Origin: a virus
DNA: 35,945 nucleotides
IMG/VR virus record: IMGVR_UViG_3300042486_001174
Coordinates: 1 to 35,945 of that record
Strand: one strand, 5' to 3'
The position numbers were made by a program, and so were the translations under genes. Positions 3,689-26,864 of this stretch are shown here, piece after piece. Position 1 is the first letter of the stretch; every line of letters begins with the position of its first letter. The notes under the pieces are model-generated. The model was not told the DNA's origin. It worked only from the letters and a program-made list of their open reading frames with translations, and did no database searches.

Positions 3689-3717
3689 TTTACATTCGTC
3701 TAAAAACCTGTTAAAAT
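3689..3717 (+). promoter_or_regulatory. Sigma70-type promoter P1
   Basis: TTTACA (3689-3694), a 17-nt spacer and TAAAAT (3712-3717). The expected +1 is G3724, giving a 16-nt leader that starts GTAAGG and ends at the ATG at 3740. The upstream text (TGCATTTTCTTG) and the leader (GTAAGGAAACCAC) are nearly the same as at the promoters at 12611, 14495 and 17262. Confidence 0.88.
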
Positions 3718-3739
3718 AATTCTGTAAGGAAACCACCAC

Positions 3740-3916
3740 ATGTCGAACCTCGATTCCCTGCTTCCCGATTCTCTCGAACTTCTTGCAATGTTTGAAACCG
3801 CCGCTGCAATCGCAGCAGCAGCTTATGCCGAAGAAGAGGATTCGCTCGAACTCGCTTTTCAAAAAGCTGCGAGTTCCGCAACGGTTGATTACATTATCTC
3901 TAACAAGAATCGCTAA
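3740..3916 (+). CDS. Small alanine-rich acidic protein (58 aa)
   Basis: The first gene of the P1 operon: ATG 16 nt after the predicted transcript start, stop TAA at 3914-3916. The protein is leucine-rich at the N-terminus (SLLPDSLELL), then alanine-rich (TAAAIAAAAYA) and acidic, probably two helices. The position of promoter and leader supports it as a real gene despite its size. I do not recognise the family. Confidence 0.75.
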   Translation: MSNLDSLLPDSLELLAMFETAAAIAAAAYAEEEDSLELAFQKAASSATVDYIISNKNR

Positions 3917-3920
3917 TACC

Positions 3921-4133
3921 ATGACTGACCAACCACAATTTGATCGTGAACGCCACGGCGGACTATTTGACCGAGGCAGCGCTGATGCTTATTACCGCCG
4001 CGCTTTTTCCCCTCACTGGTATCCACAAGGCACTGGTCGCGGTGAAGCCGTCATCAATCTGACAAGTGAGGAAATTGAAGAATACCGCAAAGGCTTCCAA
4101 TACCAAGAATCAACCGGAGAATTTAAGTACTGA
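3921..4133 (+). CDS. Conserved small phage protein, RERHGG...RGSADAYY type (70 aa)
   Basis: The ATG at 3921 is preferred over an upstream in-frame ATG at 3783, because the region before it is the coding sequence of the 58-aa gene. The protein shows the pattern D-R-E-R-H-G-G, D-R-G-S-A-D-A-Y-Y, and a C-terminal L-T-S-E-E-I-E-E-Y-R. I have seen this arrangement in short uncharacterised proteins of many phages. Its function is unknown. The stop overlaps the next start (TGATG), indicating translational coupling. Confidence 0.82.
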   Translation: MTDQPQFDRERHGGLFDRGSADAYYRRAFSPHWYPQGTGRGEAVINLTSEEIEEYRKGFQYQESTGEFKY

Positions 4134-4450
4134 TGAAAATCAAATTCACAAGCGTCGATGTTACTCCGCAGCCGTCATTGCCCAAAAGAAAGTGGCTTGA
4201 GTATCGCGTGAACGGTGTTACGATTGGATGTGCAATGACATTCATGTGTAACGGACGTTTCAATGCAGGTCGCCTTGGCCGAACATTTGATTGGAATCAT
4301 ACAGGTCTCGAGAAACTTCTGGGAACCGAAAAGTACAATGCAAACCGTGATCGTTTCATATCTCCACGCGCAGACTTGGTTTATGGGACTGGTGCCACAA
4401 TTCCTCTGAAGCGTGTAAAGGAAATCTTTACCGCTGTCGCAACTGCTTAA
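4133..4450 (+). CDS. Hypothetical protein (105 aa)
   Basis: A basic soluble protein starting inside the preceding stop codon (TGATG). It has a VTIGCAMTFMCNGRFNAGRLG segment split by two cysteines and an N-terminal proline-rich strand region. No recognised family. It belongs to the P1 operon between the RERHGG protein and the receiver-like gene. Confidence 0.75.
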   Translation: MKIKFTSVDVTPQPSLPKRKWLEYRVNGVTIGCAMTFMCNGRFNAGRLGRTFDWNHTGLEKLLGTEKYNANRDRFISPRADLVYGTGATIPLKRVKEIFTAVATA

Positions 4451-4454
4451 TAAG

Positions 4455-4760
4455 ATGAAAGTTTTTCTCGATGACGAAAGAGTCACTCCGCAAGGATGGT
4501 TCCGAACATACAATCCCGACGACACGATTGATTTGCTGCACGCTGGTCTGGTGACTGAGCTTAGCCTCGATCATGACCTTGGTGATGACGACGAAATCGG
4601 AACTGGATATGACGTGGTTCTTTGGATTGAGGAAGCCGTTGCTTTGCGAGGCTTTGTTCCTCCAATCATTCACGTTCACTCCGCAAACTCTTCGGCCGCC
4701 GCAAAGATGCGTGCTGGAATCGAAACAATCCAAAGACTACACAATGCACTCTCCGTATAA
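4455..4760 (+). CDS. Cyclic-phosphate-processing receiver (cREC)-like protein (101 aa)
   Basis: The N-terminal M-K-V-F-L-D-D-E-R, the central S-L-D-H-D-L-G followed by G-T-G-Y-D-V and W-I-E, and the late H-V-H-S-A-N match the small receiver-like family known as cyclic-phosphate processing receiver (cREC) domains. The acidic pair near the N-terminus and the D-H-D are the expected active-site residues. The family is predicted from genome context to act on 2',3'-cyclic phosphates or similar RNA ends; that role is inference. It sits just upstream of rtcB, which uses such ends. It overlaps a possible small gene at its 3' end. Confidence 0.75.
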   Translation: MKVFLDDERVTPQGWFRTYNPDDTIDLLHAGLVTELSLDHDLGDDDEIGTGYDVVLWIEEAVALRGFVPPIIHVHSANSSAAAKMRAGIETIQRLHNALSV

Positions 4761-4911: not shown

Positions 4912-4953
4912 ATCTTTAAATAATCCATAGTGATATTGCCTGTGGAAATTATT

Positions 4954-4961
4954 TATAAAAA
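4954..4961 (+). promoter_or_regulatory. Possible late-type promoter before rtcB
   Basis: TATAAAAA, one mismatch from the T4 late box TATAAATA, lies 10 nt before the preferred rtcB ATG at 4972. On the opposite strand the overlapping bases 4950-4957 read a perfect TATAAATA pointing left. The same TATTTATAAAA text recurs at 6998-7008 on the other side of the rtcB/endonuclease block. Confidence 0.4.
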
Positions 4962-4971
4962 TGACAATCTT

Positions 4972-6165
4972 ATGAAACTATTAGGTTCAAACAACAATAT
5001 TCCGGTTTTCGGCGATCCTCTCCAGAATGCCGTTGATCAGATGTCGAACTGTCTCGTCAAGGGTGGCTACAAGGCTGCACTTATGGCTGACCATCACCTT
5101 GGTTATGCTGTTCCTGTCGGCGGCGTAATTGCTTACAAGGACAAGATCTCGCCTTCAGGTGTAGGCTTCGACATCGGCTGCGGAAACAAGGCTGTGATGA
5201 CTGACCTGCACTATGGAGATATCGCGGGTGATATGAACCGTATCATGGACGAAGTGTTTGATCGCATCTCGTTTGGAATCGGCCGCAAGAACAAGACTGA
5301 TGTTGACCATGCGTTGTTTGACAACGATGCTTGGACTGACATCGCTATGCTCGGCGAGCTGAAGGACATGGCGCGCGGACAGCTTGGTACTGTCGGCAGC
5401 GGTAACCACTATGTCGATATCTTCTATGATCAAAAGGGTCGCGTTTGGATCGGAGTTCACTTTGGTTCACGTGGTCTTGGTCACAAGATTGCTTCGCATT
5501 ACATCAAGGCCGGCGGCGGTGTTGACGGTATTAACGTCGATCCTGCTATCTTGGATGTGAATACTGACCTTGGTCGCGAATACATCGCTGCTATGAACCT
5601 CGCTGGTGAATATGCGTATGCTGGTCGCGATTGGGTCTGTGAAGAAGTTGCTCGTATCCTTGGTGCGTCTATCCTTGACAGCGTTCACAACCACCATAAC
5701 TTCGCTTGGAATGAAACTCATGACGGTGAAGACCTTTGGGTTGTTCGCAAGGGTGCTACTCCTGCTTTCCCAGGTCAACGTGGTTTTGTCGGTGGAACTA
5801 TGGGTGAAAACTCAGTGATCCTCGAAGGCGTCGCGTCGGACCTTTCTTCCTCTACTCTGTATTCAACTGTTCACGGTGCAGGCCGAGTCATGTCGCGCAC
5901 CGAAGCTGCTGGTAAGTCCAAGTGGAAGGGTGGAAAGAAGATCAAGATTTCGGAAGGCAAGGTCTCGCAGGCCATGATGGACGAATGGGTTAACAAGGCA
6001 GGCGTTGTTCTTCGCGGAGCAGGCGTCGATGAATCTCCGCATGCTTACAAGCGTTTGGCTGATGTCCTTGAAGCTCAGGGCGACACTGTTCGTATTCTCG
6101 ACGTTCTTACTCCAATCGGAGTTGCGATGGCAGGTGCCGATGTATTTGATCCTTACGCCGATTGA
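4972..6165 (+). CDS. rtcB: RtcB-family RNA ligase (397 aa)
   Basis: RtcB joins RNA ends carrying a 2',3'-cyclic or 3'-phosphate to 5'-OH ends, using GTP and Mn2+. All main family signatures are visible: G-V-G-F-D-I-G-C-G with the metal ligands D67 and C70, G-S-G-N-H-Y-V-D, H-F-G-S-R-G-L-G-H, V-H-N-H-H-N-F-A, and S-T-V-H-G-A-G-R-V-M-S-R around the guanylated histidine. The length is typical. I chose ATG 4972 because a GTG at 4930 would add 14 unusual residues across the TATAAAAA box. The gene may repair tRNAs cut by host anticodon nucleases; the cREC, macro-domain and RNA-ligase genes in the same region support an RNA-repair role. Its 3' end overlaps the opposed endonuclease gene by 13 nt. Confidence 0.93.
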   Translation: MKLLGSNNNIPVFGDPLQNAVDQMSNCLVKGGYKAALMADHHLGYAVPVGGVIAYKDKISPSGVGFDIGCGNKAVMTDLHYGDIAGDMNRIMDEVFDRISFGIGRKNKTDVDHALFDNDAWTDIAMLGELKDMARGQLGTVGSGNHYVDIFYDQKGRVWIGVHFGSRGLGHKIASHYIKAGGGVDGINVDPAILDVNTDLGREYIAAMNLAGEYAYAGRDWVCEEVARILGASILDSVHNHHNFAWNETHDGEDLWVVRKGATPAFPGQRGFVGGTMGENSVILEGVASDLSSSTLYSTVHGAGRVMSRTEAAGKSKWKGGKKIKISEGKVSQAMMDEWVNKAGVVLRGAGVDESPHAYKRLADVLEAQGDTVRILDVLTPIGVAMAGADVFDPYAD

Positions 6166-6992
6166 ATGATACGTTTCCAATCAGATTCTTCACCATCTTT
6201 GATTCTGAAGAATCTGCATTGTAATTCTTCAATTATTCTATCCTGACGCAGCTTATCTTTAAGTTTTTGATCTGGTCTTTCGTGATAAGCTTCATCAAAC
6301 TCAATTACCACATTTTCAACCGGTTCATAATAATCAAGAAGATATCCAGCAACTCTAAATTCACCAACATTTTCAGCATGAACTCCGTTCCATCCAAGCT
6401 CTGAATTTATTTCCTCAAATAATCGACAAGCCTTTGCATTATAATTTGGACATGTCCAGCCTAAAGGATACTTTGAATCAATATCTCGTAAACGTCCATC
6501 TCTCTGTTTTTCTTTAGTCTCTGGTGTATGAATTTTTCCAGTAAATCCAGGCTTTCTCCCTTTAAGACTTTGAGATTTACGTTTTCTAGTTTCAGGACTT
6601 TCAGTAATGCCTAATCGTGACTTGTTGTATTCTTTTCCTTTATTTGCTTTACTGATTTTCTCTTTGGTTTCTTTAGTATGTGTTCGACTAAAAGCATGAC
6701 TTCGATCAGTACACTTATAACACGTGGTTGCCTTTAATGCTCGATAGTAACATCCAATTCCAGTATGAATGACAATTTCGCCGCATTGACACGTTCTAGT
6801 GTATTCTGTTAATTGAGCTAGTGGATCTTTATCATATGTTCTTTCAACTGCACATGAATCTCTTATTTCTTTGTCCATTAAAAACTTTACATTGTGTTTC
6901 TTCTTATACTCATTTGGAGAAAGACCGCAGCAATACTTAAGATGTAAATAACCAATACTTTTTAATTCTCTTTGACACTCTAAGCAAATCAT
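6153..6992 (-). CDS. Homing-endonuclease-like protein: zinc finger, NUMOD3 repeats, Vsr/EDxHD-like nuclease (279 aa)
   Basis: The N-terminus (C-L-E-C ... S-I-G-Y-L-H-L-K-Y-C-C-G-L-S-P-N-E-Y) resembles MucR/Ros-type finger modules found in phage homing endonucleases; a second C-x-C ... C-x2-C cluster follows near residues 68-95. Three NUMOD3-like DNA-binding segments (H-T-K-E-T-K-E-K-I-S-K-A-N-K-G-K; S-P-E-T-R-K-R-K-S; H-T-P-E-T-K-E-K) follow. The C-terminus (V-I-E-F-D-E-A-Y-H ... D-R-I-I-E ... F-F-R-I) matches a Vsr-like/EDxHD nuclease fold. It is the only leftward gene among rightward genes in this block and is visibly AT-richer than its neighbours, consistent with insertion. It is free-standing, not in an intron of a recognised gene. 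Confidence 0.85.
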   Translation of the reverse strand: MICLECQRELKSIGYLHLKYCCGLSPNEYKKKHNVKFLMDKEIRDSCAVERTYDKDPLAQLTEYTRTCQCGEIVIHTGIGCYYRALKATTCYKCTDRSHAFSRTHTKETKEKISKANKGKEYNKSRLGITESPETRKRKSQSLKGRKPGFTGKIHTPETKEKQRDGRLRDIDSKYPLGWTCPNYNAKACRLFEEINSELGWNGVHAENVGEFRVAGYLLDYYEPVENVVIEFDEAYHERPDQKLKDKLRQDRIIEELQCRFFRIKDGEESDWKRIIQSA

Positions 6993-8026: not shown

Positions 8027-8853
8027 TGAAACCGCAATGGATCATAGAAAACTTCACAAAGGAAGAATCGTTTCTTGACCTTGAAAAAGAAGTCAGAGCC
8101 CAGGGCTATGACGTTCAAACTATCAAAGGTGACTTTCTTAAAGCTGATCTGGCTGATTATCGCGACACATGCGTAATCTTTAATGGCAGCATTGAGATGT
8201 GCAAGATTGCAAAAGAAGTACTCAGCGCTCAAGGATGCAGTCCAATCATCTATTGTGATTGGGAAAAGTATCTGTGCACCTCTTACTATCCGCATTTCTC
8301 AGAGCACGTCTTCAATGACAACTATGTCTTAGTGCCGATGATTGAGTTTCAGCGTAGGCTGTATCAATTCTATGGCATCTTTGGTAAGCAAGAGCTGATC
8401 TTTGTTCGACCAAACAACGGAGACAAAACCTTTAAAGCTGAACTGCTTGACATTCAAGATGCACCGAAGTTCTTTGAAGAATTAGACCAATACAAACATG
8501 ACTTGGTCCTGCTAAGTACTCCAAAGAACATTGTCGGAGAATGGCGTTTTGTATGTACGGCCGAAAAGGAAATCCTAGCAGTATCAAGCTATCGCTATCA
8601 AGGAGTACTTACGCGTATTCCGTCTGCTCCACTTGGCGCCACCGAAAAATGTAAAGAGCTTCTTGAGATCGGATATTACCCTGACAGCGTTTTTTGCATT
8701 GATATTGTGCAGGACTCTGACGGAAACTTCTGGATGATGGAACTCACCTCTTTTTCAAGCGCAGGTCTTTACTCCACTAGGAAAGAAAACATTGTCCGCC
8801 GCGTTTCTGAAATTGCTATGAAAGATTATGAAAAAAGTAATTTACAAAGCTGA
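8026..8853 (+). CDS. ATP-grasp (R2K-type) domain protein (275 aa)
   Basis: The second half shows the ATP-grasp layout: a strand-loop with R-P-N-N-G-D-K-T-F-K-A, then E-W-R-F-V-C-T with a following V-S-S-Y-R-Y-Q, and F-C-I-D-I-V-Q-D-S-D-G-N-F-W-M-M-E-L-T before the end. The last supplies the acidic metal ligands (D-I-V ... E-L). This arrangement matches the R2K (DUF4343) ATP-grasp clade seen in phages. These enzymes ligate a carboxylate to an amine through an acyl-phosphate; the substrate here is unknown. The start is the ATG overlapping the preceding TAA; an upstream in-frame ATG at 7939 would lie within the previous gene. The next promoter begins inside its 3' end. Confidence 0.72.
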   Translation: MKPQWIIENFTKEESFLDLEKEVRAQGYDVQTIKGDFLKADLADYRDTCVIFNGSIEMCKIAKEVLSAQGCSPIIYCDWEKYLCTSYYPHFSEHVFNDNYVLVPMIEFQRRLYQFYGIFGKQELIFVRPNNGDKTFKAELLDIQDAPKFFEELDQYKHDLVLLSTPKNIVGEWRFVCTAEKEILAVSSYRYQGVLTRIPSAPLGATEKCKELLEIGYYPDSVFCIDIVQDSDGNFWMMELTSFSSAGLYSTRKENIVRRVSEIAMKDYEKSNLQS

Positions 8854-8869
8854 CCAAACCGTTTATAAT
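8841..8869 (+). promoter_or_regulatory. Sigma70-type promoter for the SPFH gene
   Basis: TTTACA (8841-8846), 17-nt spacer, TATAAT (8864-8869) in the context CGTTTATAATAAT. The expected +1 is A8876, giving a 15-nt leader made only of A and C (ACAACAAACAACAAC) directly before ATG 8891. The -35 lies inside the end of the ATP-grasp gene. Confidence 0.85.
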
Positions 8870-8890
8870 AATCTCACAACAAACAACAAC

Positions 8891-10162
8891 ATGATTAAGA
8901 AAACACTACTACTGCTTGCGGTATTTGCCGGTTCCACTCTTGCATTCAATGCTTTTGACGGATCGGGCGCTTCAACATTGGTCGCAAATAAACTTGCGCT
9001 CGATACTGTGAATGGCGGAAACGCTGAGTTCATTGCTCAATATTCATATGGACATCTGCTATCTCTGAATGTATGGGCCGTTATGACTACACTTCTAACT
9101 GCATTGGTGATGTGGTCTCGTTCGGTAAACAAGGTCTCGGCTGCTGCTATGCTGCTTGCAGGTTTCTCGTTCCTGTCGCTGCCATCGTGTAAGCCGTATC
9201 AAAAGCCTATCTATAAGGAAATCAAAAGCAATGAAACTGCGTTTGTGATTCCCCTTGAAGGTGACACTGCATCGCAGGTAAAGTTCGACTCCAAGGCTGC
9301 ACTTGAAAAGCACAAGGTTGGCACAAAGCGAATTGAGATTCCGACGCGATGGAGTCAAACTGGTCGAGGTATGGGTTCCGGTGAATGGATTCCAACTGTG
9401 AATATCATCATTGTTGATCGTAGTCCAATTACTCGAAATTGGTCCGCAGGTGATCGAGGAACGTCTAAGGAAGATCAGGCTATCTGGGTTGAATCATCGG
9501 ACAGTGTCGGATTCTCTATGGGCTTTAACTGTACCGCTTTCATTAAAGAAGAAGATACTGCACAGTTCCTCTATTGGTACAGCAGCGGTAGCCTTGCATC
9601 CGTAATGGATAGTGAAATTCGAGGACGCGTCCAGCGTGTCGCTGCTGAAGAAAGCGCCAAGCTTCCGTTGGATGATCTACGTGATAAGAAGAATGAAATC
9701 GCGGCTGCAATCCAAAAGGATGTTATCCCATTCTTCTCTGAACGTGGAATCACGGTCACTACGGTTGGTATGTTTGGCGGTATGACTTATGAAAATCCAG
9801 AGATTCAGAAGTCAATTGACAATGTCTTTGTTGCACAACAGCAGAAGAATGTTGCACTCGCAAAATATGATGCGCAAAAGAAGGAGAACGAACGCGTGAT
9901 TCTTGAAGCACAAGGTGTCGCCGAACAAAAGACTATCACTGCTGAAGCTGATGCTAAGCAGCGTCAAATCCAAGCTGATGCCGAAGCACATGCCATCGCT
10001 ACGCTTACAAAGTCAATTGCTGATGGTGGAACTAACTACCTTAACTACAAGCAAATGGAAATCAATCTTAAGCAGGCTGAACGCTGGGATGGTTCGCTGC
10101 CAAAGATCACTGGTGGATCTGTTGTTCCAATGCTTAACGCTGAAACATTCCTTAATAAGTAA
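8891..10162 (+). CDS. SPFH/prohibitin-like membrane protein (423 aa)
   Basis: The start is ATG 8891, because an upstream in-frame ATG (8828) precedes the promoter. The N-terminus has three hydrophobic segments: residues 4-18, about 48-68 (V-W-A-V-M-T-T-L-L-T-A-L-V-M-W) and about 76-95, the last ending in a lipobox-like L-P-S-C. An SPFH-type beta domain follows, then a long helical region with the repeated V-I-L-E-A-Q-G-V-A-E-Q-K and A-E-A-D-A-K-Q-R-Q-I-Q-A-D-A-E-A typical of stomatin/prohibitin C-terminal coiled coils. Such proteins form oligomeric membrane rings. A role in guarding the infected cell's membrane (as proposed for T4 rII-like proteins) is inference. Its own promoter suggests a high or separate expression level. 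Confidence 0.8.
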   Translation: MIKKTLLLLAVFAGSTLAFNAFDGSGASTLVANKLALDTVNGGNAEFIAQYSYGHLLSLNVWAVMTTLLTALVMWSRSVNKVSAAAMLLAGFSFLSLPSCKPYQKPIYKEIKSNETAFVIPLEGDTASQVKFDSKAALEKHKVGTKRIEIPTRWSQTGRGMGSGEWIPTVNIIIVDRSPITRNWSAGDRGTSKEDQAIWVESSDSVGFSMGFNCTAFIKEEDTAQFLYWYSSGSLASVMDSEIRGRVQRVAAEESAKLPLDDLRDKKNEIAAAIQKDVIPFFSERGITVTTVGMFGGMTYENPEIQKSIDNVFVAQQQKNVALAKYDAQKKENERVILEAQGVAEQKTITAEADAKQRQIQADAEAHAIATLTKSIADGGTNYLNYKQMEINLKQAERWDGSLPKITGGSVVPMLNAETFLNK

Positions 10163-10167
10163 TACAC

Positions 10168-10437
10168 ATGGCTGCAGAAATTGTAACTACATATTACCTA
10201 GCTGGAATTATCAATCGTCCAATCGGTGGATCTGATGATGAACTAACGTCGAAATACACTAAGATTCCAAACACTCCTGACTTCACCACACAAGCTGCGG
10301 CCGAGACGTTTCGAGACGATGTAATTTTGGCGAACGATGAAAACAAGAAATTCTATCGTTGTGCTAGTGTTGGAGGCGCATTTAGTCCAAATCACATTAA
10401 GGTAATCACGCAAACCCGAACAGTAATTCTAGCATGA
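10168..10437 (+). CDS. Hypothetical protein (89 aa)
   Basis: A small soluble protein starting 5 nt after the SPFH stop, with an N-terminal M-A-A-E-I-V-T-T-Y-Y-L-A and a central A-A-A-E-T-F-R-D-D-V-I. No family is recognised. The end overlaps the start of the macro-domain gene by 4 nt (ATGA), so it is translated as part of the same operon. Confidence 0.75.
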   Translation: MAAEIVTTYYLAGIINRPIGGSDDELTSKYTKIPNTPDFTTQAAAETFRDDVILANDENKKFYRCASVGGAFSPNHIKVITQTRTVILA

Positions 10438-10904
10438 AAATAGTCAAAGGCGATCTTGTCAAAGCAATCCGTGAAGGCGCAGATGGAGGACCGCAGGTTA
10501 TGCTGCATGTCTGCAATAACAAAGGTGTCATGGGCAGCGGTATCGCGCTGCAAGTGAAGAATCAAATTCCTGACGCATATCGTGCATATAAGGACTTTGA
10601 GGCTGCAGTTGGTGGTATCCCATTGGGTACAATCAGTACTTGCCACAACGTGATTAACCTTCATGCGCAGAACGGATATGGACAAGGTTTTCGCCATCTT
10701 GACTATGAAGAATTGTACAAGTCGCTTGAGAAGGCAGCAGCATATCTTGAGCGTTCGGGTGTCGAGCGCGTCGGAGTTCCATACCGCATGGGCTCCGATC
10801 GCGCAGGCGGCGATTGGCGAATCGTAAGTGCAATGCTTGAAACAGTCTTTACATACGGCAACAATCCACACATCACTCTATACGTTTATGAACTTGAAAA
10901 CTAA
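10434..10904 (+). CDS. Macro-domain protein (156 aa)
   Basis: The N-terminal V-K-G-D-L, the H-V-C-N-N-K-G-V-M-G-S-G-I-A strand-loop and the late G-V-P-Y-R-M-G-S-D-R-A-G-G-D-W match the ADP-ribose-binding macro fold, closest in outline to the Poa1p/TARG1-like Appr-1''-phosphate-processing branch. The expected chemistry is removal of phosphate or ADP-ribose groups from ADP-ribose 1''-phosphate or ADP-ribosylated targets. It could clear the ADP-ribose 1''-phosphate by-product of RNA repair or reverse host ADP-ribosylation; the sequence does not decide. The last 21 nt form a direct repeat with the end of the next gene. Confidence 0.85.
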   Translation: MKIVKGDLVKAIREGADGGPQVMLHVCNNKGVMGSGIALQVKNQIPDAYRAYKDFEAAVGGIPLGTISTCHNVINLHAQNGYGQGFRHLDYEELYKSLEKAAAYLERSGVERVGVPYRMGSDRAGGDWRIVSAMLETVFTYGNNPHITLYVYELEN

Positions 10905-11094
10905 ATTGATTCGTATGCCTTGGCGTCGACCTAGTGATCTACATGCAAGCGGTTATGTGTCTGGAATCCTTTATAGGAAATGCTACCCTCATGAAAATGT
11001 GGATAAAATCATAGCTGATTTTCAAAAGCTTGCAATTAGTGAAGGTCACAATAGAGAAATCTTAGATATTGAAGTTTATGAACTTGAAAACTAA
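10884..11094 (+). repeat. 21-nt direct repeat flanking a small gene
   Basis: The 21-nt sequence at 10884-10904 recurs exactly at 11074-11094. Each copy holds both the end of one gene (codons for Y-E-L-E-N and stop) and the start of the next (ATG for M-N-L-K-T). The 190-nt period contains essentially one gene. Confidence 0.85.
10888..11094 (+). CDS. Hypothetical protein bounded by a direct repeat (68 aa)
   Basis: It starts at ATG 10888 inside the last codons of the macro-domain gene, in a different frame, with M-N-L-K-T-K-L-I-R-M-P-W-R-R-P. It ends in E-V-Y-E-L-E-N, the same last five codons as the macro-domain protein. The body is short and basic with one cysteine and no known motif. Because the two junctions are identical, deletion between the repeats would remove exactly this gene. 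Confidence 0.65.
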   Translation: MNLKTKLIRMPWRRPSDLHASGYVSGILYRKCYPHENVDKIIADFQKLAISEGHNREILDIEVYELEN

Positions 11095-11554
11095 TCCTGA
11101 ATTTCTTCGGCTTGAAGCTGAAATGGAAAAGATCCAAAAGCAACTGCTTGAAGCAATTTGCGCTGATGAAAAGCTGTCAAAGTTGGATCGTTTGATGCTG
11201 ATCGAAAACTATAAGCTGTTTGAGACGCATTCATGGATACAACATCCGTTGCGCGAAAAGTACATGGAACAACTGAAAGAAGCTGCAATCCGTGAAGGTG
11301 CAACATACTTCATTGATGACGATTGGCCATTCCTTGAAACCGATTATCGTAATCGCGGTGAATACATCTCGCTTCCAAACGAACTGCTATGCGCAGCCGA
11401 AAACATTGATGATGAAGACTATGCTGACGGGTTTACGGTTCTTAGAGATCGAGGAACAGGCGTTGAGATTAAGATCAGTTATGAACAGCTTGAAAGCGAT
11501 GTTTATGATTGGTGCTTAAAGAACAAGAAGATTGGATTTAACTTTGATTGGTAA
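11078..11554 (+). CDS. Hypothetical acidic helical protein (158 aa)
   Basis: The start is ATG 11078, inside the second copy of the 21-nt repeat; a TTG at 11069 is less likely. Residues 5-70 are helical and charged (L-R-L-E-A-E-M-E-K-I-Q-K-Q-L); the C-terminal half is acidic (N-I-D-D-E-D-Y-A-D-G). No family is recognised. The next gene follows after 2 nt. Confidence 0.75.
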   Translation: MNLKTNPEFLRLEAEMEKIQKQLLEAICADEKLSKLDRLMLIENYKLFETHSWIQHPLREKYMEQLKEAAIREGATYFIDDDWPFLETDYRNRGEYISLPNELLCAAENIDDEDYADGFTVLRDRGTGVEIKISYEQLESDVYDWCLKNKKIGFNFDW

Positions 11555-11556
11555 TT

Positions 11557-11922
11557 ATGAAGCGGTATAGTTATGTAACTGATTGTGGAGTAGTTGAAGA
11601 TCCAAATGGTGACTATGTTAAGTATGCCGATTATGAAGCTCTTTCAAAGTATGCTGACAGCCTGGTTGAGTTTTCGAAGATACCATGTCTTCCAGCTGAT
11701 CTTAAAAACCTGCGTGAAGCTAATGGTCATTTCGCGCAAGAGAACAGTATCTTACAGGGTAGGATTCGTGAACTTGAAGCAGAAATTCGGTCGCTGAAAG
11801 CATCTCAAAAGATTAATGAAAATGAAATTGTCGGCTGGAAAAACAAGTGGGACGCAGCAGTAACAATTGCTGCAATCGCAGAAAATAAAGTCGACGCAAT
11901 TAAACGACAAATCTTTCAATAA
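11557..11922 (+). CDS. Coiled-coil protein (121 aa)
   Basis: The ATG at 11557 is preferred over TTG 11548. Residues ~50-90 have a heptad-like pattern (L-R-E-A-N-G-H-F-A-Q-E-N-S-I-L-Q-G-R-I-R-E-L-E-A-E-I), pointing to a coiled coil, followed by a second helix. The N-terminus is beta-like and tyrosine-rich. This looks like a typical small phage helical protein of unknown role. Its TAA overlaps the next ATG by one base. Confidence 0.72.
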   Translation: MKRYSYVTDCGVVEDPNGDYVKYADYEALSKYADSLVEFSKIPCLPADLKNLREANGHFAQENSILQGRIRELEAEIRSLKASQKINENEIVGWKNKWDAAVTIAAIAENKVDAIKRQIFQ

Positions 11923-12533
11923 TGAGTAACACACAAACACAATATGACGGCTATAAGTACTGTTTCATTGACACCGAAACAACTGGTACCGATCGTCTAA
12001 GGAATCATATCTTTCAAATCAGCGGTCGTATCACGACTCCTGACCTTGAGGAACTAGAATCATTTAACTTAGTCTTCAGACCATACAGTCTTGAGCATGT
12101 TGAACAAGGCGCGCTTGAAAAGACGCGTATGACTGTCGAAGATTTGGCTTCATTCCCAATGTCTAGTTCGCAGGCTTACGCCGAATTTTCCGAAATCCTA
12201 GGAAGGCATGTTCAGAAGTTCAACAAGAAGGATAAGATGCACTTCGTTGCATACAATGCTGGATTTGATGTTGACTTTACGCGACAGTGGTTTACCGTAA
12301 ATGGAGACTCATATTTCGGTAGCTGGTTCTGGAACCCGCCGATTTGTTGCATGCAAGCTGCCGCATGGCTGACACAACGTGTTCGAGGTGCTCTCCCGGA
12401 CTTCAAACTGGGAACTGTCTGCCGAGCCGCAGAATTAGGATGGAATGAAGACTCTGCTCATAATGCCGATTATGACATTGAGAAAACGGTGCAGCTTTTC
12501 CGCTATTTGACGGAATATGCTCCGAAAATTTGA
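11922..12533 (+). CDS. DEDDh 3'-5' exonuclease, DnaQ-like (203 aa)
   Basis: ExoI motif F-I-D-T-E-T-T-G gives D17 and E19; ExoII is A-Y-N-A-G-F-D-V-D-F; ExoIII is H-N-A-D-Y-D with the DEDDh histidine five residues before its aspartate. The length fits a stand-alone exonuclease of the DnaQ/RNase T group. It may act on DNA ends, RNA ends or a proofreading substrate; the motifs do not separate these. It is the last gene of the operon: a long inverted repeat follows 35 nt later. Confidence 0.88.
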   Translation: MSNTQTQYDGYKYCFIDTETTGTDRLRNHIFQISGRITTPDLEELESFNLVFRPYSLEHVEQGALEKTRMTVEDLASFPMSSSQAYAEFSEILGRHVQKFNKKDKMHFVAYNAGFDVDFTRQWFTVNGDSYFGSWFWNPPICCMQAAAWLTQRVRGALPDFKLGTVCRAAELGWNEDSAHNADYDIEKTVQLFRYLTEYAPKI

Positions 12534-12567
12534 CTGAATACCCGTAACCTATTGAAATTCATAAATT

Positions 12568-12602
12568 TGCACAAAAGTGGGAACTTTTTTCACTTTTGTG
12601 CA
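12568..12602. terminator. 12-bp inverted repeat, probable (bidirectional) terminator
   Basis: TGCACAAAAGTG (12568-12579) and CACTTTTGTGCA (12591-12602) are perfect complements around an 11-nt loop that includes T6, followed on the plus strand by TTTTCTT. It ends the exonuclease operon. The stem abuts the -35 of the next promoter, so it could also be an operator. Confidence 0.7.
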
Positions 12603-12610
12603 TTTTCTTG

Positions 12611-12639
12611 TTTACATTCCGCGAGTTTCCGTTTATAAT
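12611..12639 (+). promoter_or_regulatory. Sigma70-type promoter P2
   Basis: TTTACA (12611-12616), 17-nt spacer, TATAAT (12634-12639). The expected +1 is G12646, giving a leader that begins GTAAGGCAACCACTAC, shared almost base for base with the promoter at 17262. Confidence 0.92.
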
Positions 12640-12666
12640 AATTCTGTAAGGCAACCACTACAAAAT

Positions 12667-12948
12667 ATGAATACCACTAAAACTTCCGCTTTCTCCGCCA
12701 CCACTCGCGCCGCTGACAAAGAATACATTGTCATTGGAATCAACAGTAAGGAACATTCCGTGTTGGCTCGCACTCCGTATGAAGCCCTTGGAATCTTCCT
12801 CAAGCGCGGCCGCCACGGTCTTGGCACCAATTGGAGACTGACTCGCCAACCAGACGGTTGGATCGTGGCTGTCAATACCACAGGCCGCAATCTTGAGCGC
12901 AAAATGCACAAACTCCGCGAGAAAAACTACACTCGCGGAATGCGCTAA
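12667..12948 (+). CDS. Hypothetical basic protein (93 aa)
   Basis: ATG 12667 lies 21 nt after the predicted transcript start, whereas an upstream in-frame ATG (12577) lies before the promoter. The product is basic, with a compact middle (E-Y-I-V-I-G-I-N-S-K-E-H-S-V-L-A-R-T-P-Y-E-A-L) that may be a beta-alpha unit, and an Arg/Lys-rich C-terminus. First gene of the P2 operon. No family recognised. Confidence 0.8.
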   Translation: MNTTKTSAFSATTRAADKEYIVIGINSKEHSVLARTPYEALGIFLKRGRHGLGTNWRLTRQPDGWIVAVNTTGRNLERKMHKLREKNYTRGMR

Positions 12949-12979
12949 TCGGCTCTGAAACTCAACAAGCGTCTCATCT

Positions 12980-13318
12980 ATGAAAAAGATTGTTACTAAA
13001 GATTCTCTACTGCAACTGCTTGACGGCTCTCCAGAGCGGAAAGCGCAAATCGTAGGTCGGGCGCTTGTTGTTCTTTTCAACCGCCAAGTCGAAGACGAAA
13101 AGACCAGCAACGATACTCGCCACCTCAATATGCGCGGGTTCGCTCCATGCGATGCTTACAGCGGAACTCTTACTGCTAAGTACTACCTTAAGCACCGCAG
13201 ACTACTCGATTGGCAACTTGAGCGATGGCTTGCTCCAACGACCAAAGGATACCCGCGTATTGCAAAATACACTCGTCAGCTCAACGAAGCCGCAAACGAA
13301 AAACTTCAAACGGTATGA
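12980..13318 (+). CDS. Hypothetical protein (112 aa)
   Basis: A soluble helical protein with R-A-L-V-V-L-F-N-R-Q near residues 26-35, a central R-G-F-A-P-C-D-A-Y-S-G-T-L-T-A-K-Y-Y-L-K, and L-L-D-W-Q-L-E-R-W. This kind of sequence occurs in uncharacterised proteins of several phage types, but I cannot assign a function. Its TGA overlaps the next ATG (ATGA). Confidence 0.78.
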   Translation: MKKIVTKDSLLQLLDGSPERKAQIVGRALVVLFNRQVEDEKTSNDTRHLNMRGFAPCDAYSGTLTAKYYLKHRRLLDWQLERWLAPTTKGYPRIAKYTRQLNEAANEKLQTV

Positions 13319-13509
13319 ATACACCAACAAACCACCATTCGTTGCGTCTATTGGATTTGGCGATTCGTTGGAACACTCAAGCTGAAATCTACGATGAGGA
13401 AGGCAATGCTGACTGCGGGACGGGATCGGACGTCCCTTACGCGATGGCTTCAATGCTACGCGAACACGCCGCCGAGATTGAAAAGCTGGCATACATGTCT
13501 AAAGAATAA
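13315..13509 (+). CDS. Hypothetical protein (64 aa)
   Basis: It starts at ATG 13315, overlapping the preceding stop by 4 nt. A small acidic helical protein (S-L-R-L-L-D-L-A-I-R-W-N ... M-L-R-E-H-A-A-E-I-E-K-L-A) with one cysteine. Helical content and coupling support it as real; the function is unknown. The RNA ligase gene follows 5 nt downstream. Confidence 0.72.
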   Translation: MNTPTNHHSLRLLDLAIRWNTQAEIYDEEGNADCGTGSDVPYAMASMLREHAAEIEKLAYMSKE

Positions 13510-13514
13510 GTAAA

Positions 13515-14141
13515 ATGAAACCACTTCGCTACAAATATCCTCGCACATTCCATCTTCCATGGAGCGAAGGCTGCACATCAGACGATAAGAAGCTGGCAGG
13601 CAGCGATCACTTCATTGGTCAGCAGGTTGTGATCACCGAAAAGATGGACGGTGAGAATACGACAATCTATCATGACCATGTTCACGCTCGTTCGATTGAC
13701 AGTTCGCATCATTGGTCGCGCTCACGCGTCAAAGAACTGCAGTCTCGCTTGTATGATCTGCCTGAAGATCTGCGAATCTGCGGTGAAAACCTTTATGCCA
13801 AGCATAGCATCAAGTACGATAACCTTGTGGATTACTTCCAGGTCTTCAGTATTTGGAGCCACGAACAATGCCTCTCTTGGAAGGATACTGTTGAGTGGGC
13901 TGAGATTCTTGGGCTGAAGACTGTTCCTGTTCTCTATAGCGGAGTCTATAGCTATCCGATCATCAAGGAGATTCAAAATAAAATGGACTTCTCACGCAGT
14001 GAAGGTTATGTAATTCGCCTAGCCGATTCATTCCGCATGAAGGACTTCTCGAAGAGCGTCGCTAAGTATGTCCGTACTAATCATGTCCAAACCGACGAGC
14101 ATTGGATGACTGCTGAACCTGAAACAAATACCTTAGTATGA
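13515..14141 (+). CDS. RNA ligase family protein (208 aa)
   Basis: Motif I is E-K-M-D-G-E-N with the expected adenylated lysine K43. Motif IIIa-like text follows (E-N-L-Y-A-K-H-S-I-K-Y), then V-F-S-I-W, motif IV E-G-Y-V-I-R-L and motif V K-S-V-A-K-Y-V-R. This is the nucleotidyltransferase core of ATP-dependent 5'-P/3'-OH RNA ligases; the length is short, like minimal Rnl-type enzymes, with little beyond the core. It complements RtcB, which seals 5'-OH ends. The stop overlaps a following micro-frame (ATGA). Confidence 0.85.
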   Translation: MKPLRYKYPRTFHLPWSEGCTSDDKKLAGSDHFIGQQVVITEKMDGENTTIYHDHVHARSIDSSHHWSRSRVKELQSRLYDLPEDLRICGENLYAKHSIKYDNLVDYFQVFSIWSHEQCLSWKDTVEWAEILGLKTVPVLYSGVYSYPIIKEIQNKMDFSRSEGYVIRLADSFRMKDFSKSVAKYVRTNHVQTDEHWMTAEPETNTLV

Positions 14142-14494: not shown

Positions 14495-14523
14495 TTTACA
14501 TTCCGGGCGTTTCCGTTTATAAT
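14495..14523 (+). promoter_or_regulatory. Sigma70-type promoter P3
   Basis: TTTACA (14495-14500), 17-nt spacer, TATAAT (14518-14523) in the same CGTTTATAATAATTCTG context as P2. The expected +1 is G14530, giving a 16-nt leader GTAACGATACTACCAC before the ATG at 14546. Confidence 0.92.
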
Positions 14524-14545
14524 AATTCTGTAACGATACTACCAC

Positions 14546-14977
14546 ATGACTACCGAATCTGCCGCTCTACTCGCCCACATCCAAGCCGAAAACCGCAAAA
14601 CCCTTGAGTGGGTCTCCGCCGATCCACATCGTTTCGCTACGACGCACGTTGAGGATCTTGAGCACTGGAACACGTGCGAAGTGTTCACGGTTGAGGACTT
14701 CATCAAATACAACCTTGCATGCGAAATCTATGACGGCAATAAGGAGATATACGGATACCGGTTGGACTTCCTCGATCTGATGCAGTCGACCGTTGAGGAG
14801 CTGACCGCTGAGGTCAATAGCCTTCGCATTGAGTGCCGACGACAAGCTGAGCAAGAAGAAGCCGATCGCGTCTATGAAAAGGCCGAAGAAGAATACTCCA
14901 ACTGGATGAATTCGGCACATGAGGATCGCGCGATCCGGGATCGCTACGAAGACCTCGCCGAAGCAGCTGAATACTAA
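14546..14977 (+). CDS. Acidic coiled-coil protein (143 aa)
   Basis: First gene of the P3 operon. The N-terminal half is mixed; residues ~75-143 are strongly helical and acidic (V-E-E-L-T-A-E-V-N-S-L-R-I-E-C ... Q-E-E-A-D-R-V-Y-E-K-A-E-E-E-Y). No recognised domain. Confidence 0.78.
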   Translation: MTTESAALLAHIQAENRKTLEWVSADPHRFATTHVEDLEHWNTCEVFTVEDFIKYNLACEIYDGNKEIYGYRLDFLDLMQSTVEELTAEVNSLRIECRRQAEQEEADRVYEKAEEEYSNWMNSAHEDRAIRDRYEDLAEAAEY

Positions 14978-14978
14978 T

Positions 14979-15149
14979 ATGAAACGCGGGGATACTCTTA
15001 AAATCACCAAGACCTTTAATGACAAGCCCGTCACGCTATCTTACTTGGTACTTGCCGTAAAGGAAAACATTGTTACCGTAAGAACTCCTAAAAGATACAT
15101 TGCGCGTCTTAACATCAACAATTTTACACTCATCTCAAAACCACATTAA
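14979..15149 (+). CDS. Small SH3-like basic protein (56 aa)
   Basis: ATG 14979 follows the previous TAA by one base. The product is a short basic beta-type protein (M-K-R-G-D-T-L-K-I-T-K ... V-L-A-V-K-E-N-I-V-T-V) that could fold as a small SH3-like barrel; this is inference from the strand pattern. The DNA ligase gene follows after 1 nt. Confidence 0.65.
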   Translation: MKRGDTLKITKTFNDKPVTLSYLVLAVKENIVTVRTPKRYIARLNINNFTLISKPH

Positions 15150-17261: not shown

Positions 17262-17290
17262 TTTACATCCGAGCATTTTCCGTTTATAAT
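17262..17290 (+). promoter_or_regulatory. Sigma70-type promoter P4
   Basis: TTTACA (17262-17267), 17-nt spacer, TATAAT (17285-17290). The expected +1 is G17297 with the same GTAAGGCAACCACTAC leader as P2, ending at ATG 17316. Upstream lies the palindrome AAATTTTGTGAAAATTT. Confidence 0.92.
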
Positions 17291-17315
17291 AATTCCGTAA
17301 GGCAACCACTACAAA

Positions 17316-19046: not shown

Positions 19047-19268
19047 ATGACAGGACAACTTCCAAGACCAGGTAGTGTTTGGCGCCAGACCGCTCTTAAT
19101 CGGCAAATGCGTGTAGTCTTCTCAAGCATGAAGGAGATCATCGCGCATGATGCTGAAATGAGTGATCGTCTTGAACACATAGTTTCATGGGTAGGTACCG
19201 CCGATGAGTTTAACAAACTCTTTGAACCAGGTGACCCATCTAAATTCCCTCAGACCGCAAAGGCATGA
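19047..19268 (+). CDS. Hypothetical protein (73 aa)
   Basis: Small helical protein (M-K-E-I-I-A-H-D-A-E-M-S-D-R-L-E-H-I) with a proline/glycine start. Two nt after the preceding stop; its TGA overlaps the next ATG. No family recognised. Confidence 0.7.
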   Translation: MTGQLPRPGSVWRQTALNRQMRVVFSSMKEIIAHDAEMSDRLEHIVSWVGTADEFNKLFEPGDPSKFPQTAKA

Positions 19269-19663
19269 TTGTTGAAATTCAAACAACGAAGGAAATCCAA
19301 TTGACGCATGTTTGGATTCAGGTGCCAGTGCGATATGAAGACCAAGACATTCCATACGATTTCCCTTTCAGAACAAAGAACGTATGGACGCCGGCAATTG
19401 AACTTGACACTGGACGTGTTGTCGATTGGCCAAAGGGCGTATCGGCAAATGTGTATCTAAAGGTATGCGATTCAGGTCGATATAATCTTATGGATAATGG
19501 GATGATCGTTGAGACAATTCATGATTATGTCCCAGCCTTTATTCCAAATGAATATGGCGATTACATCAATTTTGACATCAATGAGGATGGTGTCATTCTT
19601 AATTGGTATAATCCCGAAAGTATCAAAGATATGATCGAAGAATATCTAAACGAAAACTCATGA
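19265..19663 (+). CDS. Hypothetical beta-rich protein (132 aa)
   Basis: A soluble, acidic, beta-rich protein: V-W-I-Q-V-P-V-R-Y-E-D near the N-terminus, W-T-P-A-I-E-L-D-T-G-R-V-V-D-W-P in the middle, and an acidic helix (I-K-D-M-I-E-E-Y-L-N-E-N) at the end. The W-x-x-x-I-x-x-x-T-G-x-V-x-x-W-P pattern appears in uncharacterised phage and plasmid proteins. It overlaps both neighbours by 4 nt, so it is coupled to the phosphatase gene. Confidence 0.72.
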   Translation: MIVEIQTTKEIQLTHVWIQVPVRYEDQDIPYDFPFRTKNVWTPAIELDTGRVVDWPKGVSANVYLKVCDSGRYNLMDNGMIVETIHDYVPAFIPNEYGDYINFDINEDGVILNWYNPESIKDMIEEYLNENS

Positions 19664-24713: not shown

Positions 24714-26864
24714 TTAGTAAGCATATAACCCCATGGCGCTGCCGGTCAGAATTGGACCAGCGGCGCCATTTAAGTTTTGATTGACGTTGCTGTTCGAGAC
24801 ATTGTGTACGTCTCCTCCACGGCTGACATTGTTGACAACCATCATTCCACCACCTGAATTACCTGGACTATTGATTGCTGATACGGTATCAGCTGGAGAT
24901 GGAGTTACTGTGCTGAGCCCGTTAGATGCGGCCGCAGCAGGCGAATTGGATGCAATGATTTGAATCGGAGTTTTGAAGTCCTTAAGTTCCTCAATCTTAT
25001 CCCAAGGGAAGCTACCAAATGAAGCCCAATCAGTATTCAAATCAGATATGTACTTCATTCCTTCGCCCATAGCCTTGATAGACTGACCAATACCAATTAG
25101 ATTATATCCTTCCTTTGACAGCTTCATCAGCTTTTCAAGCGGACTATCTGCTCCAAATGATAGAAGCTTGCCGATAAAATTACCTAAGCCAGCTGCTGCT
25201 TCACCAACACCAAACCCAGCAATTGCTGCTCCTATTGCAGCAATACCTCCGGCGATACCAAATAACATTCCCCCGTCAAGCTTAGAAATTCTTTCACTAA
25301 ATGAATCGAAGAATTCTCCAATTTTGTTATCATCTCCTATTGCTAATTTCAATAGAGTCAATCCAGCTGATAGAGGTAGCATCGCTGCGCCTGCCAGAGT
25401 CATTCCAGGAGCTGCCAGTAATAGGAGCAGCGATGCTTTAGCCAAAGATGCTGCTACACCGGTTAGACCTTCAAATGCTTTCATGTCAACCTTACTTAGA
25501 ACATTTAGTCCATAAGCCAAAGGTATCAATGCAGCACCAAGTGCAGCAATTGCAAGTACTCCTGCTGCAAACAATGCGGCTTGTGGTCCCATTAACAATG
25601 CGCCTAATCCAGCAGCGGCTAACGTTAGGCCAACTAATGCAACAGCAGCTATACCTAAAGATTTCCATGAGACATCTTTTAGAAGGTTAAGACCAAATGC
25701 TAATGGAATTAGCGAAGCTCCAAGTAATCCTATAGCCAATGCTCCTTTTGCGATCGTTGCCATTGACTTCCCTAAGAAAGTGCCAAGCAATGCTAGTCCG
25801 CCAAGTGCAACTGTCGCCTTACCTAAATCTTCCCACTTAACAGATTCAAATGTACGAAGCGCAATTGCAGTTACTGCCAAAGCTGCACCCATTGCAGCAA
25901 TTCCTAATGCACTCTTTAGCAATGACCCCTGTATTTTTGATAAACCGTATGTTGCTGCAACAATTCCACCAATCACAAGACCGGCCTTACCTAAATCTTC
26001 CCACTTAACTTCTGAGAATGTCTTAAGAGATTTTCCAAGAACAAACAGTCCACCGGCAAATAGGATAAAGCCTCCTCCTACTTTTAGAATAGTGTTACCA
26101 AGTTTTGTTAGAGATGATACATCAGCCTTACCAAGTTTAGTAACACCCTTTGAGATATTATCGGCGGATTTTACAAAATTACCAACTGTTGTATTATTGA
26201 TTGCATCGATGAAATCCGTTAGTGGCTTTCTTATGAAGATTAAAGCCAATCCAAATTTCAGCATTGGACCCGCCTCTACCTTATTGAAATCAGAAAATGC
26301 TTCAGCTAATGCAGACAGCTTTTTAACACTGGCATCACTCAATTTACTTAGAGTTTCAACAAAACTTTTTATGCTTCCCCCTAGTAGACGTGATGCTACT
26401 CCAGCTTTAATTACTCCGCTAACTCTGATCTTTGCAAATTCAGATATTGCCTTTGATGCTTCTGAGAATGTCTTTAGTTTTTCGAGTGATACATCATTGA
26501 TATCTGACAATTCCGTAATCAAATTGCGCATGCCCTTTGCATATGCCTTAACTACTTTTGGGAAAACGCCAAAAGTAATTGACTTAACAATATCACTAGC
26601 TGAAGGTATGATTGACTGACTGCTATTGCCACCACCAGGCGCCCCTCCTTTGTTTTTTGCCAGAGTGTCAATTCCTTTGACCATGATACCCATTAGTTTG
26701 GATATTTCCTCAAGGAAAAGCTCAGACATAATCGATGAGTCCCTTAAAGGAGTCAGCGTATTGCCTACTTCATATGTGACTAGCTCGACAGCTGCAGCAA
26801 TGTCAGTTTGATTACTGAACATTTGCTGCAGGATGTTGGTCATTTCCTGGGATGTTTCTGGCAT
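24714..26864 (-). CDS. Tail tape measure protein (716 aa)
   Basis: A long helical, Gly/Ala/Leu-rich protein with many short hydrophobic helices (residues ~260-560), typical of phage tape measure proteins. A unit of about 56 residues recurs: V-K-W-E-D-L-G-K-A at 286-294 and 342-350, V-S-W-K-S-L-G-I-A at 398-406 and V-D-M-K-A-F-E-G-L at 459-467. The C-terminus is Asn/Ser/Gly-rich (V-V-N-N-V-S-R-G-G-D-V-H-N). The position after the gp26/gp51-like pair fits the slot of T4 gene 29. The start is ATG 26864, 3 nt after the gp51-like stop. Confidence 0.83.
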   Translation of the reverse strand: MPETSQEMTNILQQMFSNQTDIAAAVELVTYEVGNTLTPLRDSSIMSELFLEEISKLMGIMVKGIDTLAKNKGGAPGGGNSSQSIIPSASDIVKSITFGVFPKVVKAYAKGMRNLITELSDINDVSLEKLKTFSEASKAISEFAKIRVSGVIKAGVASRLLGGSIKSFVETLSKLSDASVKKLSALAEAFSDFNKVEAGPMLKFGLALIFIRKPLTDFIDAINNTTVGNFVKSADNISKGVTKLGKADVSSLTKLGNTILKVGGGFILFAGGLFVLGKSLKTFSEVKWEDLGKAGLVIGGIVAATYGLSKIQGSLLKSALGIAAMGAALAVTAIALRTFESVKWEDLGKATVALGGLALLGTFLGKSMATIAKGALAIGLLGASLIPLAFGLNLLKDVSWKSLGIAAVALVGLTLAAAGLGALLMGPQAALFAAGVLAIAALGAALIPLAYGLNVLSKVDMKAFEGLTGVAASLAKASLLLLLAAPGMTLAGAAMLPLSAGLTLLKLAIGDDNKIGEFFDSFSERISKLDGGMLFGIAGGIAAIGAAIAGFGVGEAAAGLGNFIGKLLSFGADSPLEKLMKLSKEGYNLIGIGQSIKAMGEGMKYISDLNTDWASFGSFPWDKIEELKDFKTPIQIIASNSPAAAASNGLSTVTPSPADTVSAINSPGNSGGGMMVVNNVSRGGDVHNVSNSNVNQNLNGAAGPILTGSAMGLYAY
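24733..24769 (+). terminator. Terminator for gp32 inside the opposing tape measure gene
   Basis: A 15-bp GC-rich stem (24733-24747 with 24755-24769; one G-U pair and one mismatch) with a 7-nt loop, followed on the plus strand by TTAAGTTTT. It lies 32 nt after the gp32 stop and within the last codons of the leftward tape measure gene. The T-rich side is only on the plus strand, so it fits rightward termination. Confidence 0.6.

Follow-up and report, generated by a model that had tools for sequence, protein, structure and literature searches.

A 21-nt direct repeat brackets a 68-aa gene, S, in what appears to be an uncultured T4-like phage, and we consider this repeat to be probably the scar of a gene relocation, in which S was placed between its present neighbours, A and B. 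The genes lie in IMG/VR virus record IMGVR_UViG_3300042486_001174, analysed over a stretch of 35,945 nt that we call the window; its PHROG matches (single-strand DNA-binding protein, tail tube cap, baseplate wedge, hub/lysozyme, RtcB-like ligase and DNA ligase) suggest the T4-like assignment. The comparison is with a second, T4-like genome, IMGVR_UViG_3300012348_000173 (L001; 93,918 bases; the relative), which carries homologues of S, of B, of the following gene C and of an exonuclease; beyond about 3.7 kb of the window the two are for the most part syntenic, with local insertions and replacements. The gene order is A-S-B-C in the window and A-B-x-S-C in the reverse complement of the relative, where x is a 29-codon ORF with a GTG start; S is missing from the A/B slot of the relative and from the B/C slot of the window. 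It has changed slot in one lineage or the other.

Two identical copies at the A/S and S/B junctions

The repeat, GTTTATGAACTTGAAAACTAA, is an exact match over 21/21 nt between positions 10884-10904 and 11074-11094 on the plus strand; the two copies are spaced 190 nt apart, and the letters that flank them on the outside differ on both sides. Copy 1 holds the final codons of A and the ATG of S, and copy 2 the final codons of S and the ATG of B. The coding is identical in the two, the upstream gene ending ...VYELEN (this and the tails below are written up to the stop codon) and the downstream gene beginning MNLKT, and each copy sits in a 17-nt stop/start overlap. The initial annotation had described a direct repeat in which each copy joins the stop of one gene to the start of the next, and this is borne out letter for letter. 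S is also, as had been claimed, a precisely removable unit in the geometric sense: when the flanks are joined in silico with a single copy, A still ends ...VYELEN and B is unchanged at 158 aa, so that removal of S and one copy keeps both genes intact. In the window's own IMG/VR record the A-S-B arrangement is present once.

In 60 random sequences simulated with a first-order Markov model of the window, repeats reached at most 15 nt where the copies lay no more than 300 nt apart, and at most 19 nt without that limit. Matches were also counted among gene starts. Past base 2200 of the window, the 46 plus-strand ORFs that have an ATG start and measure 60 aa or more give 1035 pairs, in which the S and B starts share 21 nt and the runner-up 12 nt; among the 45 adjacent pairs the second-best match is 7 nt. 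The same count over the first 35 kb of the relative (1431 start pairs) returned one adjacent pair sharing 18 nt. An 18-nt repeat of this type lies inside the promoter-like repeat ahead of two similar genes, which the match would fit. Outside its repetitive first 2.2 kb, the window has five repeats of at least 21 nt; three of the other four pair up inside the promoter-like repeat, and the fourth lies within the gene at 24714-26864. The segment at 1-2200 is densely repetitive, its repeats measuring up to 112 nt and lying in genes that match DUF6745 weakly.

These counts bear on the idea that shared selection produced the 21 nt twice, as a stop-start coupling signal. The placement of both copies in a stop/start overlap speaks for such a signal, but the other start pairs examined in the window share at most 12 nt, the other adjacent pairs at most 7 nt, and the stops and starts of S, B and C in the relative use different letters; we regard the idea as highly improbable. 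An assembly error might be suspected in a metagenome contig taken from an IMG/VR virus record, but the reading frames are intact across the repeat, S is also present in another contig, and 21 nt is shorter than common read lengths, and we give this explanation next to no weight.

Gene S, its neighbours and the relative

Gene S (10888-11094, plus strand, 68 aa), whose homologue occupies another slot in the relative, had no match in family searches of Pfam, PHROG and NCBIfam. The two S proteins are 73% identical over 63 aa, and their dN of 0.15-0.17 and dS of 0.40-0.46 indicate that S is a constrained gene. The structure predicted for S from a two-sequence alignment (fairly confident, mean pLDDT 86.8) is strand-strand-helix-strand, with a short C-terminal strand (residues 62-65) that includes the repeat-encoded VYE. 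Foldseek of this model against the PDB and BFVD gave no match at E <= 0.001; in a second fold comparison the best Z was 5.9, with none of at least 8, which may mean only a common arrangement and leaves room for unlisted families. S runs into the next gene in both genomes, its stop codon lying inside C in the relative (an overlap of 14 nt) and inside B in the window (17 nt), and gene A likewise ends inside S.

The possibility that S is a partial copy of A was considered and rejected. By BLASTP, S aligns with A over 44 aa (E 0.005), up to the VYELEN end, and the likeness is that of the shared tail: without its six residues the best match is 3 aa (E 6.5), a score equalled in 259 of 1000 shuffles, and in a profile comparison only the last 10 columns align (probability 3). 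In the relative, where S and A have no common tail, the two match over 11 aa elsewhere (E 0.08). S and B show no match (E 36), and S is thus not supported as a tandem duplicate of A or B, no relationship beyond the repeat having been found. The initial annotation had read the repeat as the footprint either of a tandem duplication or of gain and loss. Gain or loss is supported, as the relative has A and B adjoining and S elsewhere, whereas tandem duplication of the gene is not; nor were the gene and its repeats found to be invariant, the only relative found being different. A duplication of the A/B junction, possibly within a larger tandem duplication, would fit the letters.

Gene A (10434-10904, plus strand, 156 aa) is a macro-domain protein that matches PHROG 335 ('phosphatase') at E 4.5e-33. 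Its Pfam Macro score of 16.8 bits is under the gathering score of 22, the NCBIfam DarG model gives E 8.1e-10 at 38.5 bits against a cut-off of 250, and four PDB sequences match at E 3e-6 to 1.7e-4, two of them named as macro/Appr-1-p domain. Gene B (11078-11554, plus strand, 158 aa), which adjoins A in the relative and is 73% identical to its counterpart there, has no family match in Pfam, PHROG or NCBIfam beyond one chance-level Pfam row (E 0.096), and its structural model is poor (mean pLDDT 45.7). A distant second copy of B, about 25% identical, lies at 14515-15036 of the reverse-complemented relative. The B/C junction (11555-11580, plus strand) is S-free in the window; in the relative it holds the 29-codon ORF and S, directly followed by gene C (11557-11922 in the window, plus strand, 121 aa). 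For C there are weak, sub-cut-off Pfam rows and a match to PHROG 23083 (unknown function) at E 2.9e-5 over 25 aa.

One region of the window holds a cyclic-phosphate-processing receiver domain (4455-4760), an RtcB-like ligase (4930-6165), the DarG-like macro gene (10434-10904) and an RNA-ligase-like gene (13515-14141), and these four genes possibly serve RNA repair and ADP-ribose removal against host defences.

Scans of viral contigs for S, B and the exonuclease returned one contig only, that of the relative. B found no viral contig as a single-protein query and this same contig as an alignment query; genome contig scans with B and S found none. The exonuclease is present in one of the four records behind the loci searched, again the relative's contig. 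When phage genomes were searched, the window DNA at 8800-13500 had no match, S none at E 1 and B none at E 0.01, and the exonuclease matched three records at less than 60% identity. A search for macro homologues gave 34 loci, two of them from contigs already in the set. Among 50 loci with limited flanks, matches to S and B occurred only in the window itself (L007) and in the relative's contig.

Proposed origin of the doubled junction

In the relative, S ends with GTTTATGAA, followed by the start of C, and starts with ATGAAGACTAA; these match 9/9 of the first and 9/11 of the last letters of the repeat, respectively, matches that are short and at chosen places, with the native S tail taken from one genome only. 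The first 9 nt of repeat copy 2 are those also found at the S/C junction of the relative. Its A/B joint, ATTTATCAACTATGACAACCAATCC, agrees with 7/9 letters of the first part of the repeat and 8/11 of the last part. When all 21 letters are compared without gaps, x/S scores 15, S/C 13 and this A/B joint only 12/21, the poorest match, to which a one-base gap contributes. In an alignment made by eye, both window copies are one base short with respect to the relative's A/B joint (CTTGA for CTATGA), and the codon aligned with the start codons of the relative's S and B is TTG in the window, where the ATG lies 6 nt upstream. The same one-base change in both copies would be expected if one junction had been duplicated.

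S ends VYELEN in the window and VYEKI in the relative. Three macro homologues end TIYELENV (L044), KIYEL (L026) and IYKLEE (L036), the other homologues ending otherwise. Because these macro homologues end alike and the relative's S ends differently, the VYELEN tail looks native to A and borrowed by S, which, being otherwise unlike A, would here carry an A-type tail. As this tail matches A and not the relative's S, the letters suggest that, in the lineage of the window, S came to an A/B junction already in place and that this junction was duplicated. The duplication looks younger than the split of the two genomes, or else homogenised, because the copies are identical at 21/21 nt, in contrast to S and B, in which about 17-20% of the bases are not those of the relative.

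We propose that S reached the A/B site by recombination at short homologies around gene starts, and that the A/B junction sequence was copied onto both sides of S. The first 9 nt (GTTTATGAA) would stem from the end of A, with which the native end of S agrees, and the last 10-11 nt would be the start of B, resembling the native start of S (ATGAAGACTAA in the relative); with a crossover in each of these common stretches, both junctions would come to carry the 21 nt. If the B-x-S block had been duplicated in tandem and one B and one S then lost, both the swapped order and the doubled junction would result; a double template switch is an alternative route. Short-homology recombination is probably the route of junction duplication, and no function is needed for the repeat itself. 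Among the genomes found there is no intermediate with two copies of B or S. The repeat, both gene orders, both S-free junctions and the letters that the junctions have in common are observed. We infer from them that S arrived in the window's lineage, that a duplication was the route and that the recombination system of the phage itself was used; the direction can only be inferred, because there is one relative and no outgroup. Over the 30 nt before the start codon, the left flank of the relative's A/B joint matches the end of A at 17/30 and the end of S at 19/30, values that do not settle the direction of the move.

Were the window's order the older one, S with its repeat would have stood between A and B in the ancestor, and the relative would have lost S there and come to carry it later between B and C. 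Only two genomes are compared, both orders are open and intact, and a deletion between the copies would yield an intact A-B joint. The product expected from such a deletion is GTTTATGAACTTGAAAACTAATCC, however, while the relative has ATTTATCAACTATGACAACCAATCC. Because its joint is not the product of deletion between the two window copies, we read the relative's A/B junction (...CAACTATGACAACC...) as an S-free site in preference to a deletant. The tail of S in the window also matches A rather than the relative's S, and the copies are still identical, which suggests a young duplication; we therefore consider an ancestral window order to be unlikely.

Another explanation starts from gene A, which is unusually diverged from its counterpart (dS 2.08, compared with 0.48 for R2K, 0.40 for S, 0.65 for B, 1.16 for C and 0.68 for the exonuclease). 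Because of this high dS, A itself may be the product of an exchange, which could have left the footprint; an exchange of the A segment may also form one history with the move of S. A foreign block consisting of an SPFH gene, an 89-aa gene and A would then have replaced its counterpart and ended in the A/S/B junction, where a double crossover made the repeat and S was carried along or trapped. The 89-aa gene ahead of A has only 38% aa identity to the relative; both it and A exceed in divergence R2K on the upstream side and S and B on the downstream side. At the corresponding place, the relative lacks the SPFH gene of the window. Yet dS is uneven along the window: in the 37 genes compared it runs from 0.21 to beyond estimate, with C at 1.16, which makes the contrast suggestive only; and a block exchange alone gives no account of the absence of S from the window's B/C slot. 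We judge it quite improbable, and relocation of S with duplication of the A/B junction remains the reading that we prefer.

Start-to-start differences and known routes of gene movement

Besides S, seven genes between 4.1 and 19.7 kb of the window, or in the corresponding part of the relative, have been gained, lost or moved. The scoring covered nine junctions, including two for S itself; they were picked by hand, and places where several genes differ at once were left out. Clean start-codon-to-start-codon differences on both flanks occur at 5/9 junctions, those of genes of 105, 64, 132, 103 and 173 aa. The 105-aa gene (4133-4450, plus strand), a second displaced gene, lies between 3783-4133 and 4455-4760 in the window; its neighbours adjoin in the relative, where the gene is found about 0.45 kb downstream behind a promoter-like repeat, and its flanks match at 28/30 on the left and 30/30 on the right, compared with 17 and 18 for the controls. 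The 64-aa gene (13315-13509, plus strand) and the 132-aa gene (19265-19663, plus strand) are missing at the same places in the relative, with left and right flank matches of 26 and 27 (controls 19 and 19) and of 28 and 22 (controls 19 and 18). For the 103-aa and 173-aa genes, which belong to the relative, the values are 23 and 28 (controls 15 and 18) and 25 and 25 (controls 15 and 20). The 70-aa gene of the relative is above control on the left only (22 vs 16; right 21 vs 22). The S junction (left 17 vs 19, right 21 vs 16) and the x+S junction (19 vs 21, 25 vs 20) are above control on the right only, and the SPFH junction is above it on neither flank (16 vs 21, 17 vs 19).

This pattern does not show a start-codon mechanism, because selection for intact frames favours such joints and most genes start with ATGA (29/37 and 33/44 gene starts in the two genomes). 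Microhomology at the other gene differences was rejected as evidence, since ATGA sharing is the norm and matches of 5-7 nt are common among start pairs. It is a tentative and rather doubtful proposition that the lineage swaps accessory genes as start-to-start units, running from one ATGA to the next, with S as the extreme case, a gene that has no stop of its own in either genome, ends within the gene that follows and could thus be read before different genes. If this were true, the ATGA overlaps that are habitual in phage genomes would serve gene shuffling as a substrate, and if the pattern holds in more pairs of genomes it would link the common ATGA overlap to gene gain and loss. In the reverse-complemented relative, a 26-nt direct repeat beginning with ATG occurs at 70741 and 71077 (MKESYESED twice, 336 nt apart); its copies flank an in-frame segment located at, or close to, the beginning of a long ORF, and it is a possible second start-region duplication.

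The hallmarks of a transposon, IS or MITE were not found at S, where there is no transposase match and there are no terminal inverted repeats at the repeat ends; inverted pairs near S are imperfect (10939-10950/11028-11039, 83%; 10868-10876/10952-10960, 89%), and none was returned at the default setting. A check of S as a homing endonuclease gave no family match and no fold match at E <= 0.001, and the NUMOD3 gene of the window lies elsewhere. This NUMOD3-motif gene (6153-6992, minus strand) is likely to be homing-endonuclease related, and no ORF of the relative matches it at E 1e-5.

Deletion and duplication between short direct repeats occur in phage T4 and in bacteria, and repeats of this length are known substrates. 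The S site has, in its 21 nt, a repeat of suitable length; neither a deletant nor a duplicant of this genome was seen. The model of tandem duplication and random loss predicts a swap of neighbours in which the old junction is kept on both sides, and we found no application of it to phage gene order in the open-licence literature.

Gene shuffling in T4-type phages has been described for PeSL (promoter-early-stem-loop) cassettes (Arbiol 2010 and Comeau 2014, as cited in PMC4503421). The window shares with these the setting of a T4-like phage and a dispersed promoter-like repeat, one copy of which stands directly ahead of the 105-aa gene in the relative. In contrast, the junctions of S carry neither a copy of this repeat nor a terminator-like stem-loop: terminator-like sites number 0 in 10400-11700, and the four promoter-like sites found there, vs 2.9 expected, are at chance level. 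The promoter-like repeat, which consists of TTTACA, 17 nt, TATAAT and a leader mostly with AAGG, shortly before an ATG, is found in the window at 3704-3739, 12626-12661, 14510-14545 and 17277-17312, with none near S. Its variant TAATAATTC occurs in 4/4 window copies and TAATGATTC in 5/6 of the closest copies of the relative; the copies are alike within a genome and differ between genomes, as if homogenised within each. A spontaneous 9.5-kb deletion has been recorded in cyanophage S-PM2, ascribed by its authors to mispackaging in the account that we draw on (PMC4503421).

The closest parallel lies in the T4-related phages, which are mosaics whose genes are gained, lost and translocated by illegitimate or short-homology recombination, at junctions that typically lack the marks of known mobile elements, and for which phage recombination enzymes are discussed as a possible agent (PMC2993671, in the passages used here). 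There, as in the window, accessory genes come, go and move around a conserved core (PMC2993671, same passages). We make no claim of priority for a footprint of this kind, the literature covered being open-licence text; the case of S looks like a well-preserved footprint of known phage mosaicism and not a new system. It differs in that the joint is visible base by base, in the 21-nt repeat, and in that the relative shows both S-free junctions. It offers a base-by-base view of the relocation of small genes of unknown function in T4-like phages, where such joints are often blurred before being seen.
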